This document shows, one piece after another, positions 4,655-8,349 of a stretch of DNA of 11,961 nt. Every line of letters starts with the position of its first letter. Position 1 is the first letter of the stretch. Under the pieces are notes generated by a model. That model saw only the letters and a program-made list of their open reading frames with translations. It ran no database searches and was not told the origin of the DNA. The position numbers were made by a program, and so were the translations under genes. This stretch comes from a bacterium (GTDB taxonomy: Bacteria; CAIJMQ01; JAADFP01). The DNA lies in contig JALUVB010000096.1 of assembly GCA_027021085.1 (NCBI GenBank), positions 1-11,961 of the forward strand, in the 5' to 3' direction.

Positions 4655-7366
4655 ATGGAAAAGTATGTTTATTTCTTCGGTGATGGTTATGCAGACGGCG
4701 ATGCTTCCATGAAAAATCTGCTGGGAGGCAAGGGAGCCAACCTGGCCGAGATGGCCCGTTTAGGGATACCTGTCCCTCCCGGTTTCACGATTACCACGGA
4801 AGTCTGCACCTACTTCATGAAAACCAACGGCAAGTATCCCCCCAGCCTGGAAAAAGAAGTTGATGAAGCATTAAAAAGGGTAGAGAAAATTACCGGCATG
4901 AAGTTCGGTGACACCGACAACCCCTTACTCTTTTCCGTACGTTCGGGAGCACGCATATCCATGCCAGGCATGATGGAGACAGTGCTTAACATCGGACTGA
5001 CCAGTGAAACTGCCCAGGGGTTAATCAAGAAAAGCGGGGATGAAAGGTTCGTTTACGATGCCTACCGCCGGCTTATCATGATGTACTCGGATGTAGTAAT
5101 GGAAAAGGCCAAGGGCATAGAGCCGGAAGGCGGCATAGGTATCCGGGAAAAACTGGAAGAAGAACTCAGCAAAATGAAAAAAGAAAAAGGGGTGGAGTAT
5201 GATACCGAGCTTGAGGCAGAAGATTTAAAAAAGCTCTGTGAAATCTTCAAAAAGAGGGTAAAAGAGGTGCTTAAAGAAGAATTTCCCGATGATGCCCACA
5301 AACAGCTCTGGGGAGCAATCTCTGCCGTCTTCTACTCCTGGAACGGCAAACGCGCCGTATCTTACAGAAAAATCGAAGGCATCCCCGACGAATGGGGTAC
5401 CGCGGTAAATGTGCAGACAATGGTTTTTGGCAACATGGGAGAAAACTCTGCCACAGGAGTAGCCTTTACCAGAAACCCTGCCACGGGGGAAAACGTATTC
5501 TACGGTGAATTCCTGGTTAATGCCCAGGGCGAGGACGTGGTAGCAGGCATCCGCACCCCCCAGGCTATCAACGAAGCCTCCAAGAGCGAAGCCTCAAAAC
5601 ACCTTCCCTCCCTGGAAGAACTCATGCCGGAACTTTACCGGCAACTGGTGGAGATAAAGAACAAGCTGGAGAAACATTACCGGGATATGCAGGACATAGA
5701 GTTTACCATCCAGGAAGGTAAACTATACATTCTCCAGACGCGTACCGGCAAAAGAAACGGCATCGCAGCCATAAGAATGGCCGTGGAGATGTGCCTGGAA
5801 GGGCTTATAAGCAAAGAAGAAGCAATCATGCGGGTGCAGCCCATACAGCTGGATGAACTGCTCCATCCCATGATAGACCCCGCCGCAGAGGCAAAAGCCA
5901 GGCAACTTGCCAGGGGTCTTCCTGCCGGCCCGGGAGGCGGCCACGGACAGATTGTCTTCACCGCCGACGAGGCAGAAAGATGGGCTAAGGAAGGCAAGAA
6001 AGTTATCCTGGTCAGAAACGAGACCAGTCCGGAGGATGTGCACGGCATGCACGCCGCAGAGGCAATCCTCACTGCTACCGGCGGGATGACCTCGCACGCC
6101 GCCCTGGTGGCCAGAGGCTGGGGGAAATGCTGCATAGTAGGGGCCGGAACACTGCAGATAGATGCGGCCAAAAAAATCATGCGGGTAGACGGAAAAGTGC
6201 TTAAAGAAGGAGACTGGATTACTCTCAACGGCACAAAAGGGATTGTCTACGAGGGGAAACTGGACCTCATCCCGGCAGACCCGGAAAAGAACGAAGTCTA
6301 TAAACACTTAATGCGCTGGGCTGACAGCGTACGCAAGATAGGGGTCAGAACAAATGCTGACAACCCGCAGGATGCTGCCACAGCCAGGAGGTTCGGCGCC
6401 GAGGGAATTGGCCTCTGCCGTACAGAACATATGTTCTTCGGTCATGACAGAATCACTGCCATGCGCGAGATGATTCTTGCTGACACGGAAGAAGGAAGGA
6501 AGAAAGCCCTGAAAAAACTTTTACCCTACCAGAAAAAAGACTTTATGGGCATATTTGAAGCCATGGCCGGACTTCCCGTGACCATAAGAACCCTGGATCC
6601 CCCCCTGCATGAATTCCTGCCCCAGGATGAAAAGAGCCAGCAGGAAATGGCGGAGGAATTAGGCATATCGGCAGAAGAAGTAAAAGAGAAAGTCAACGCT
6701 CTGCACGAGATGAACCCCATGCTGGGGCACAGAGGCTGCAGGCTGGGAATAACCTATCCTGAGATTACCGCCATGCAGGCACAGGCAATCTTAGAAGCAG
6801 CCTGTGAACTGGCAAAGAAGGGGGTTGAGGTATATCCGGAGATTATGATTCCGCTGGTGGGCAGCAAGGCAGAACTGGAGAACCAGAAGAAAGTGGTGGA
6901 TGAAGTGGCAAAAGAAGTTATGGCAAAGTACGGGGTAGAAGTGAAATATTCCGTGGGCACCATGATAGAAATACCCCGGGCAGCGCTCACTGCTGACAAG
7001 GTTGCCGAATGCGCAGAGTTCTTCTCTTTTGGGACAAATGACCTGACCCAGCTGACCTACGGATTCAGCCGGGACGATGTGGGGAAATTCCTGCCGGAGT
7101 ACATAGAGAAGGGAATACTGCCCAAGGACCCCTTCCAGACCATTGATGTAGAGGGGGTGGGGAAACTGGTGGAGATGGGTATTAAAAACGGCCGCTCCAG
7201 GAAGAAAGACCTCAAGGTCGGTATATGCGGAGAACACGGAGGAGACCCGGAATCAGTCAAATTCTGCCACCGGGTAGGGATGAATTACGTGAGTTGTTCT
7301 CCCTTCCGGGTTCCCATAGCCAGGCTGGCAGCTGCTCACGCCTCCCTGGAAGAAAAAAAGAAGTGA
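4655..7366 (+). CDS. ppdK: Pyruvate, phosphate dikinase
   Basis: A 903-residue cytoplasmic enzyme catalysing pyruvate + ATP + Pi to and from PEP + AMP + PPi, full length for the family (about 870-900). The N-terminal ATP-grasp part starts with FGDG then GGKGANLAEMARLGIPVPPGF (23-43) and has SVRSGARISMPGMMET (94-109). The swivelling domain has GGMTSHAALVARGWGKCC (476-493), with phosphorylated His481. The C-terminal TIM-barrel PEP/pyruvate domain has GLCRTEHMFF (586-595), NPMLGHRGCRLGI (687-699), FGTNDLTQ (792-799) and KVGICGEHGGDP (854-865), with catalytic Cys858. AGGAGG at 4643-4648, within the end of trpB2, sets the start. Its stop overlaps the start of the adenosine-specific kinase. In anaerobes PPDK can serve PPi-dependent glycolysis or gluconeogenesis; the direction cannot be inferred. 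No regulatory protein (DUF299/PpsR type) gene is in view. Confidence 0.97.
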   Translation: MEKYVYFFGDGYADGDASMKNLLGGKGANLAEMARLGIPVPPGFTITTEVCTYFMKTNGKYPPSLEKEVDEALKRVEKITGMKFGDTDNPLLFSVRSGARISMPGMMETVLNIGLTSETAQGLIKKSGDERFVYDAYRRLIMMYSDVVMEKAKGIEPEGGIGIREKLEEELSKMKKEKGVEYDTELEAEDLKKLCEIFKKRVKEVLKEEFPDDAHKQLWGAISAVFYSWNGKRAVSYRKIEGIPDEWGTAVNVQTMVFGNMGENSATGVAFTRNPATGENVFYGEFLVNAQGEDVVAGIRTPQAINEASKSEASKHLPSLEELMPELYRQLVEIKNKLEKHYRDMQDIEFTIQEGKLYILQTRTGKRNGIAAIRMAVEMCLEGLISKEEAIMRVQPIQLDELLHPMIDPAAEAKARQLARGLPAGPGGGHGQIVFTADEAERWAKEGKKVILVRNETSPEDVHGMHAAEAILTATGGMTSHAALVARGWGKCCIVGAGTLQIDAAKKIMRVDGKVLKEGDWITLNGTKGIVYEGKLDLIPADPEKNEVYKHLMRWADSVRKIGVRTNADNPQDAATARRFGAEGIGLCRTEHMFFGHDRITAMREMILADTEEGRKKALKKLLPYQKKDFMGIFEAMAGLPVTIRTLDPPLHEFLPQDEKSQQEMAEELGISAEEVKEKVNALHEMNPMLGHRGCRLGITYPEITAMQAQAILEAACELAKKGVEVYPEIMIPLVGSKAELENQKKVVDEVAKEVMAKYGVEVKYSVGTMIEIPRAALTADKVAECAEFFSFGTNDLTQLTYGFSRDDVGKFLPEYIEKGILPKDPFQTIDVEGVGKLVEMGIKNGRSRKKDLKVGICGEHGGDPESVKFCHRVGMNYVSCSPFRVPIARLAAAHASLEEKKK

Positions 7367-7863
7367 TGGAAATAAAAGCGGTTAAAATAAAAAACATTCC
7401 TGAGGGAGCAAACCTTATCCTGGGACAGAGCCACTTCATAAAAACAGTGGAAGACCTATACGAGGTAATAGTCACCTCGCTGCCCTCGGTGAGGTTCGGC
7501 CTTGCCTTCGTGGAGGCCTCCGGCGCCTGCCGGGTGAGAGGAGAAGGGAATGACGAGGCACTAAAGAAGGTTGCGCTGGAAAATGCCCTGGAGATAGGAG
7601 CAGGCCATACCTTCTTAATCATTCTGCAGGACGCTTATCCCATCAATGTCTTAAACGCGGTAAAGATGGTGCCCGAGGTATGCAGAATCTTCTGCGCCAC
7701 GGCAAATCCCGTAGAGGTCATTGTAGCCGAGACAGACCAGGGGCGAGGGATCTTGGGGGTAGTGGACGGAATGAAACCAAGAGGTATAGAACAAGCAGAA
7801 GATATTAAATGGCGAAAAGGGCTGCTTAGAAAGCTGGGATATAAGTTAGACTATAGACCATAG
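7366..7863 (+). CDS. Adenosine-specific kinase (DUF355/PF04008 family)
   Basis: A 165-residue protein of the small adenosine-specific kinase family, known mostly from archaea and deep-branching bacteria and proposed to phosphorylate adenosine to AMP. It matches the family over its whole length: GQSHFIKTVEDLYE (20-33), FGLAFVEASG (44-53), GNDEALKKVALENA (61-74), IGAGHTFLI (77-85), YPINVLNAVK then VPEVCRIFCATANPVEVIVAET (103-123), and GRGILGVVDG (126-135). The ATG at 7366 shares its A with the ppdK TGA, so translation is probably coupled; a longer frame from 7225 would run into ppdK and is not used. The last residues (LDYRP) and the stop are encoded by a heptamer tandem repeat that continues downstream, so the natural end may once have been at about GYKL. 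The AMP product links it to PPDK. Confidence 0.88.
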   Translation: MEIKAVKIKNIPEGANLILGQSHFIKTVEDLYEVIVTSLPSVRFGLAFVEASGACRVRGEGNDEALKKVALENALEIGAGHTFLIILQDAYPINVLNAVKMVPEVCRIFCATANPVEVIVAETDQGRGILGVVDGMKPRGIEQAEDIKWRKGLLRKLGYKLDYRP

Positions 7864-7966
7864 ACTTTGGACCGGAAGAGAGAAAAGGCAAGATGCAAGG
7901 TGCAGGATAGTGAACGGTGAATGGCAGGTTGGTTTCCTGGTAATCCTGGTTTCTTGGTGTCCTGGG
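7847..7966 (+). repeat. Mosaic of degenerate 7- to 9-base tandem repeats
   Basis: The stretch opens with four heptamers in perfect register: TAGACTA, TAGACCA, TAGACTT, TGGACCG (7847-7874). After a 13-base purine-rich spacer come GCAAGAT, GCAAGGT, GCAGGAT (7888-7908), then AGTGAAC, GGTGAAT, GGCAGGT (7909-7929). A longer unit follows: TGGTTTCC, TGGTAATCC, TGGTTTCT, TGGTGTCC (7930-7962), then TGGG. The first block overlaps the 3' end of the adenosine-specific kinase gene and provides its stop. No direct or inverted terminal repeats and no ORF of note are present. This resembles short tandemly repeated repetitive (STRR) heptamers known from some cyanobacteria, but the words here differ and their function is unknown. 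Confidence 0.75.
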
Positions 7967-8014: not shown

Positions 8015-8042
8015 TTGTTTTTGCCAAAACGTGTGCTATAAT
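8015..8042 (+). promoter_or_regulatory. Sigma70-type promoter for the HU gene
   Basis: A perfect TATAAT at 8037-8042 is preceded by TG at 8034-8035 (extended -10). A half-matching -35, TTGTTT at 8015-8020, lies 16 bases upstream. Transcription would start near 8049, leaving about 30 nt of leader that contains the Shine-Dalgarno GGAGGTGA (8066-8073), six bases before the HU ATG. It is the clearest promoter in the window. Confidence 0.75.
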
Positions 8043-8079: not shown

Positions 8080-8349
8080 ATGAATAAAGCTGAGCTGGTA
8101 GAAAAGGTGGCAGAGGCTGTTTGCACAAAAAAGGAGGCAGAGGCAGCAGTGGATGCCGTAATTGGTGCTATCACTGAGGCATTGAAGAAGGGAGAAGATG
8201 TAAGGCTGGTAGGCTTTGGGACATTCCAGGTTAAGAAAAGGGCAGCAAGAGAAGGGAGAAATCCCAGGACTGGAGCTACTCTCTCTATTCCTGCAAAGAA
8301 GGTTCCTGTGTTTAAAGCTGGAAAATCACTCAAAGACGCTGTTGCCTGA
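8080..8349 (+). CDS. hup: HU-family nucleoid DNA-binding protein
   Basis: An 89-residue protein of normal HU/IHF length. HU dimers bend and compact chromosomal DNA. The N-terminal helices start [12 protein letters not shown], the core has GFGTF (45-49), and the DNA-gripping arm has [14 protein letters not shown] (59-72) with the intercalating proline at P62. The end is [14 protein letters not shown], as in many bacterial HUs. Arm sequence and length favour an HU homodimer over an IHF subunit. The ATG is fixed by a strong Shine-Dalgarno at 8066-8073. It has its own promoter and terminator and therefore looks monocistronic. C15 in helix 1 is a little unusual for HU. Confidence 0.97.

Follow-up and report, generated by a model that had tools for sequence, protein, structure and literature searches.

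Background

The STRR words of cyanobacteria include the heptamers CCCCART, CAACAGT and TTAGTCA. The neisserial intergenic mosaic elements are intergenic mosaics of repeat modules and CGTC-type hairpins; described in these general terms, they may resemble the arrays reported here, which also combine repeat modules with hairpins. Ordered heptamer words are not known from them.

Intergenic heptanucleotide repeats are known from bacteria as long simple sequence repeats (Mrazek 2007, via PMC4679880). TAACTGA repeats occur in Beggiatoaceae, and different heptamers are mixed in Microcystis (PMC4679880). GGGAATC repeats are found in Xanthomonas and GGGGAYT repeats in Nostoc (PMC4692102). It has been proposed that the contact length of the polymerase favours slippage by 7 nt (work cited in PMC4679880). 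A different class of intergenic repeat is formed by the CGTC-tagged REP palindromes, including dRS3 of Neisseria, which consist of a head, an AT-flanked GC-rich stem, a short loop and a CCA tail, and for which no dedicated transposase is seen (PMC3733652).

The array considered here lies in an 11,961-nt stretch of DNA (the window) from a bacterial genome of 1.93 Mb in 307 contigs (the source genome, G000). Most of the array anatomy was drawn from 461 kb of this genome and 873 kb of a genome of the same genus (G001); the relatives of the same class available for comparison were few. The arrays share with known heptanucleotide repeats the 7-nt unit, the intergenic location, the tandem arrangement and the change in 7-nt steps, but differ from them in their words, in the degeneracy of their units and in a fixed order of several words together with REP hairpins. 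Furthermore, they are anchored behind stop codons, whereas the repeats of Maribeggiatoa stand before start codons. Neither TAACTGA nor the Xanthomonas repeat words occurred in tandem in the samples of the two genomes. An earlier note on this DNA, made from the sequence alone, had been reminded of the cyanobacterial STRR heptamers; a kinship by sequence is not supported, with no tandem occurrence of the three STRR words in the 461 kb and 873 kb searched. Heptamer repeats and REPs are thus known, and the stop-anchored mosaic grammar described below appears to be new; in a limited literature search, no published case came up in which heptamer words and REPs follow each other in a fixed order behind stops.

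The array behind the kinase gene

The window array lies between the genes for an adenosine-specific kinase and an HU-type DNA-binding protein and comprises the following features:

7366..7863, plus strand: adenosine-specific kinase gene (PF04008, residues 10-160 of 165)
7847..7874, plus strand: module A, four heptamers of TAGACYN type that anchor the array next to the stop (from the sequence and genome-wide matches; retained by both G001 versions at the orthologous position)
7861..7863, plus strand: kinase stop codon TAG, given by the third heptamer (from the sequence)
7888..7908, plus strand: three GCARGRT heptamers (from the sequence; tandem form unique in the genome)
7909..7922, plus strand: module B, two AGTGAAY-type heptamers (genome-wide double-unit matches)
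7930..7965, plus strand: module E, 8/9-mers of TGGTTTCC type (TRF; E follows B in 37 transitions)
8037..8042, plus strand: TATAAT between the array and the HU gene (from the sequence; same words in both G001 versions)
8080..8349, plus strand: HU-type DNA-binding protein gene, downstream neighbour of the array (PF00216)

The tandem blocks of differing heptamer words that the earlier note described at 7847-7966 are present in the sequence as stated. The letters at 7847-7874 read TAGACTA TAGACCA TAGACTT TGGACCG and are followed by a 13-nt linker, by GCAAGAT GCAAGGT GCAGGAT (7888-7908), by AGTGAAC GGTGAAT (7909-7922) and by the 8/9-mer block at about 7930-7965. Lag-7 matching is 0.48 inside 7847-7966, and in the window as a whole, lag 7 is best matched in stretches beginning at 7838 and 7874.

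The last codons of the kinase gene, TTA GAC TAT AGA CCA TAG, are array sequence and encode LDYRP and the stop, in agreement with the earlier claim that the first block supplies them. Both same-genus kinase orthologues keep LDYRP* together with the repeats. In the other family of the class, three readable homologues have no repeats and terminate with ...GYKR*, and because of these differing ends the LDYRP tail is most likely derived from the array, as had been suspected when it was described as looking added. The further expectation that gain or loss of a 7-base unit would alter the stop was only half correct: in silico, loss of a unit extends the kinase from 165 to 201 residues (36 added), whereas gain of a unit leaves it at 165. 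On the 3' side of the array, TATAAT at 8037..8042 marks the return of conserved sequence; a consensus scan called no promoter there. Judging from its sequence, it is probably part of the HU promoter.

Abundance and module order

The double unit of TAGACYN, TAGACYATAGACY, has 185 exact matches in the source genome and the double unit of the AGTGAAY type, RGTGAAYRGTGAAYRG, has 73, compared to 0 for the reversed control in each case. In G001, TAGACYATAGACY has 87 matches (control 0), and in other genomes of the same family and class it has 0 to 7, mostly no more than the control. The mixed-word arrays are therefore genome-wide and not a local oddity, as the earlier note had proposed. Among the words it singled out, this applies to the TAGACYN and AGTGAAY types and fails for GCARGRT: the double unit GCARGRTGCARGRTGC was found in the source genome only at the kinase-HU locus, so that GCARGRT as written gets no backing as a family-wide module. 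Related words of the GATGCAGRAT type are present at other loci.

While these whole-genome counts represent genome averages, the contigs for the lag and period analyses were picked for carrying arrays, and the following densities apply to such contigs: in about 300 kb of the source genome, self-matching of noncoding DNA is 32.4% at lag 7 versus 23.9% at lag 6 and 26.0% at lag 8, and 178 period-7 segments stand against 12 expected under a second-order Markov model, with at most 43 for other periods. The noncoding autocorrelation peaks at lags 7, 14 and 21 in both genomes, and coding DNA shows no lag-7 peak. A tandem, intergenic 7-nt unit, the hallmark of bacterial heptanucleotide simple sequence repeats, is thereby found here.

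The vocabulary consists of four main heptamer families, A (TAGACYN), B (AGTRARY), C (GTAGYGR) and D (AACTNRC), beside which stand the non-heptamer modules E (TGGTWTCC), P (a REP hairpin) and the short modules Q, R, S and H. They follow the grammar (GTAGYGR)-TAGACYN-AGTRARY-TGGTWTCC-REP hairpin, of which the order in the window, A, GCARGRT, B, E, is a shortened form lacking the hairpin. The modules succeed one another in a marked order, with 55 transitions from A to B, 37 from B to E and 11 from E to P. Within 153 of 163 arrays the modules are co-oriented. A or C opens 48 of 62 arrays in the source genome and 64 of 90 in G001, and stands at the array end on the same strand in 18 and 24, respectively. 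The right ends are variable, since the last modules differ between arrays, and P is missing from many of them. An orientation of the arrays by replication strand is unlikely because contigs hold arrays of mixed orientation, as judged by eye.

Module P resembles the CGTC-tagged REPs in form (PMC3733652), with a comparable succession of head, stem, loop and tail and likewise with no dedicated transposase seen. Of about 93 hairpins, 66 are of the TGTC/CCA and 8 of the CGTC/CCA form, the head thus being mostly one base off CGTC. Module P differs from these REPs in this mostly TGTC head, in being embedded in heptamer composites and in its absence from the window copy. A Y1 transposase-like gene of 225 aa (L180, 626-1303; G000:C45) sits amid three TTACACCCCSGGGGTGTAA palindromes, a sequence different from the array REP hairpin; an array stands a few hundred bases away.

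Position at gene ends

The gene context of the arrays was taken from genes called by codon usage. A first pass with unfiltered ORFs gave no clear orientation bias and left many arrays in spurious ORFs; codon-scored genes were used instead. In tandem gaps, 40 arrays turn their A end toward the 3' end of the upstream gene and 8 turn it toward a 5' end (p=3e-6). The 40 arrays facing 3' ends begin a median of 5 nt behind the upstream stop, which matches the clustering at gene ends that the earlier note had proposed to check and not the position just upstream of start codons that characterizes the TAACTGA repeats of Beggiatoaceae. Eighteen arrays start at or within a gene end, and the stop is TAG in 14 of these genes, compared to 198 of 1079 genes generally. 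According to a looser ORF-based count, in which some ORFs are doubtful, an A block lies no more than 25 nt from 50 gene ends. At 24 of these, an A heptamer supplies its TAG as the stop codon: the first unit in 12 cases, the second in 5 and the third in 7, the window included.

The frequency of stops depends on the strand. On the favoured strand, stops account for 15% of the triplets of A, 19% of those of B and 21% of those of C, versus 8%, 0 and 0 on the other strand. Each of the three frames contains stops on this favoured strand, the one presented by most arrays. Where an array adjoins a gene in this orientation, translation therefore ends quickly whatever the frame.

Relatedness and turnover of the copies

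Composites of different loci can be aligned over 250-520 bp at 66-90% identity. Segments of 150-270 bp are common to different loci at 90-96% identity, non-repeat linkers included, and a 263-bp copy with 90% identity lies between unrelated flanks at two loci. Since the composites are alignable and their linkers nearly identical, the copies, judged by these alignments, share descent, and the alignable length indicates that many of them come from shared composites and did not arise by slippage at each site independently. When related copies are aligned, in pairs that are not independent of one another, gap lengths peak at 7, with 63 gaps versus 16 gaps of 6 nt and 15 of 8 nt; 46 of the 63 lie inside or beside blocks. 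The whole-unit change in copy number typical of heptanucleotide repeats is thus observed. The earlier suggestion of a family-wide slippage or templated process holds with respect to the genome-wide occurrence and the 7-nt steps; templating finds no support in these data. Recombination breakpoints at heptamer blocks were considered as well. Shared segments do not end preferentially near blocks (75% of ends versus 86% of interior positions); recombination at the repeats therefore lacks support, which counts against the explanation preferred below.

Orthologous gaps of the two genomes were defined by flanking genes matching at about 80-88% identity. In 13 of 14 comparisons, a gap with an array in the source genome also has one in G001, under a lenient criterion of one pattern hit and with the window counted twice because G001 has two versions of the locus. 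Four further gaps have an array in G001 only, and no clean empty site was present in the pairs inspected. The interiors of the arrays are largely replaced between the genomes, while the orientation, assessed by eye, is mostly kept. In all three versions of the kinase-HU gap, TTAGACTATAGACC and the tail LDYRP* are kept, followed by divergence until a conserved stretch before HU. The modules GTTTAGNGTTTA and CGCAACCG have 18 and 19 copies in the G001 sample (for example L185, L195) and 0 in the G000 sample, which suggests lineage-specific amplification. The two G001 versions of the kinase-HU region (L133 = G001:C25 and L138 = G001:C26) are each about 88% identical to the window; they are probably due to a bin that mixes two strains or species and not to a duplication.

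Discussion

On balance, and with moderate confidence, we consider the composite arrays to be shaped by replication slippage, ectopic recombination and selection for stops in three frames. In this explanation, 7-nt units would be gained and lost by slippage, and whole blocks would pass between dispersed arrays by ectopic recombination, either gene conversion or template switching. Selection against read-through would set the bias in position and orientation, as an array in the favoured orientation would end translation at once at the 3' end of an abutted or invaded gene, while the opposite orientation would mostly leave the frame open. This explanation is based on the 185 and 87 matches versus 0, the restriction of period 7 to noncoding DNA, the ordered and co-oriented modules and the segments shared between loci. 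It also draws on the gap peak at 7, the replaced interiors at orthologous gaps, the stop-facing A ends and the strand bias of stops. Two further observations count against it: in convergent gaps the preference for the A end is weak (13/18, p=0.08), and arrays are also found in divergent gaps, where stop supply cannot matter. Apart from this supply of stops, the array is probably tolerated repeat DNA without sequence-specific function.

The dispersal of composites with a common block order could also mean that a transposase mobilizes them as non-autonomous elements; a REP-associated tyrosine transposase with the hairpin module as its substrate would be one candidate. The 263-bp copy between unrelated flanks, the REP form of the hairpins and two Y1 transposase matches in the source genome would fit such elements. 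Nevertheless, we regard this as unlikely, given that the right ends vary and no terminal motif other than heptamers is common to the copies, in conflict with the fixed termini of a MITE. In addition, the Y1 transposase gene near an array is flanked by its own palindrome TTACACCCCGGGGGTGTAA, the hairpin is absent from many arrays including that of the window, and the same gaps are occupied in both species. Retention at orthologous gaps, together with the strongly biased position and orientation relative to the 3' ends of genes and the many copies with REP hairpins, would be expected of functional 3' elements under selection at gene ends, such as terminators, mRNA stabilisers or protein binding sites. 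This is improbable for an array content that is replaced between species and for arrays that occur in divergent gaps as well; moreover, the window array is predicted to be less structured than shuffled sequences (z +1.74), has no terminator-like site and gave no match in an Rfam search.

Heptamers are the commonest long bacterial repeats (PMC4679880), and the 7-nt gap peak is what independent local slippage at each site would produce, the arrays being ordinary simple sequence repeats without exchange between sites. This possibility is already disfavoured, and we give it very little weight, because block order and non-repeat linkers are common to loci at 90-96% identity and lineage-specific modules recur in many loci. 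An artefact of assembly or binning might be suspected in a fragmented metagenome genome of 307 contigs with many arrays at contig ends, but it can practically be dismissed, as arrays also lie inside long contigs and recur with conserved edges at orthologous gaps of another genome. It is also quite doubtful that a dedicated directional process writes ordered heptamer modules behind stops, with the TAG-bearing word first, and rewrites them in each lineage. If it did, array-encoded tails and stops would be a feature common to unrelated proteins.

The arrays show that degenerate heptamers can be assembled into composites whose order is conserved and whose position is markedly related to gene ends. 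Genes can receive stop codons and C-terminal tails from them, and from one species to the next their content turns over while the sites stay fixed. With many parallel copies in a natural system, it becomes possible to test why 7 nt is the favoured repeat length in bacteria, a long-standing question.

Degenerate phased heptamers are not confined to these genomes. Five consecutive AGT-N4 units were found in 116 of 386 broadly sampled genomes, compared to about 0.006 expected per genome in random sequence. All four main words described here contain AGT or ACT, and one of these triplets is present in 10 of 17 heptamer arrays from foreign contigs versus 1.9 expected. AGT was considered as a universal anchor and rejected: among 145 genomes, 39 were AGT-phased when assessed by eye, versus 42 for TGA and 37 for GAT, and AGT is therefore not special. 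TAG-, ATG- and GTA-phased arrays occurred in about 21 to 22 of these genomes each. Intergenic mosaics of several degenerate heptamer words are also seen in unrelated genomes (L261-L282, for example L267 and L276). In L268 and L271, a long ORF ends in overlap with the array, which seems to provide the stop codon.
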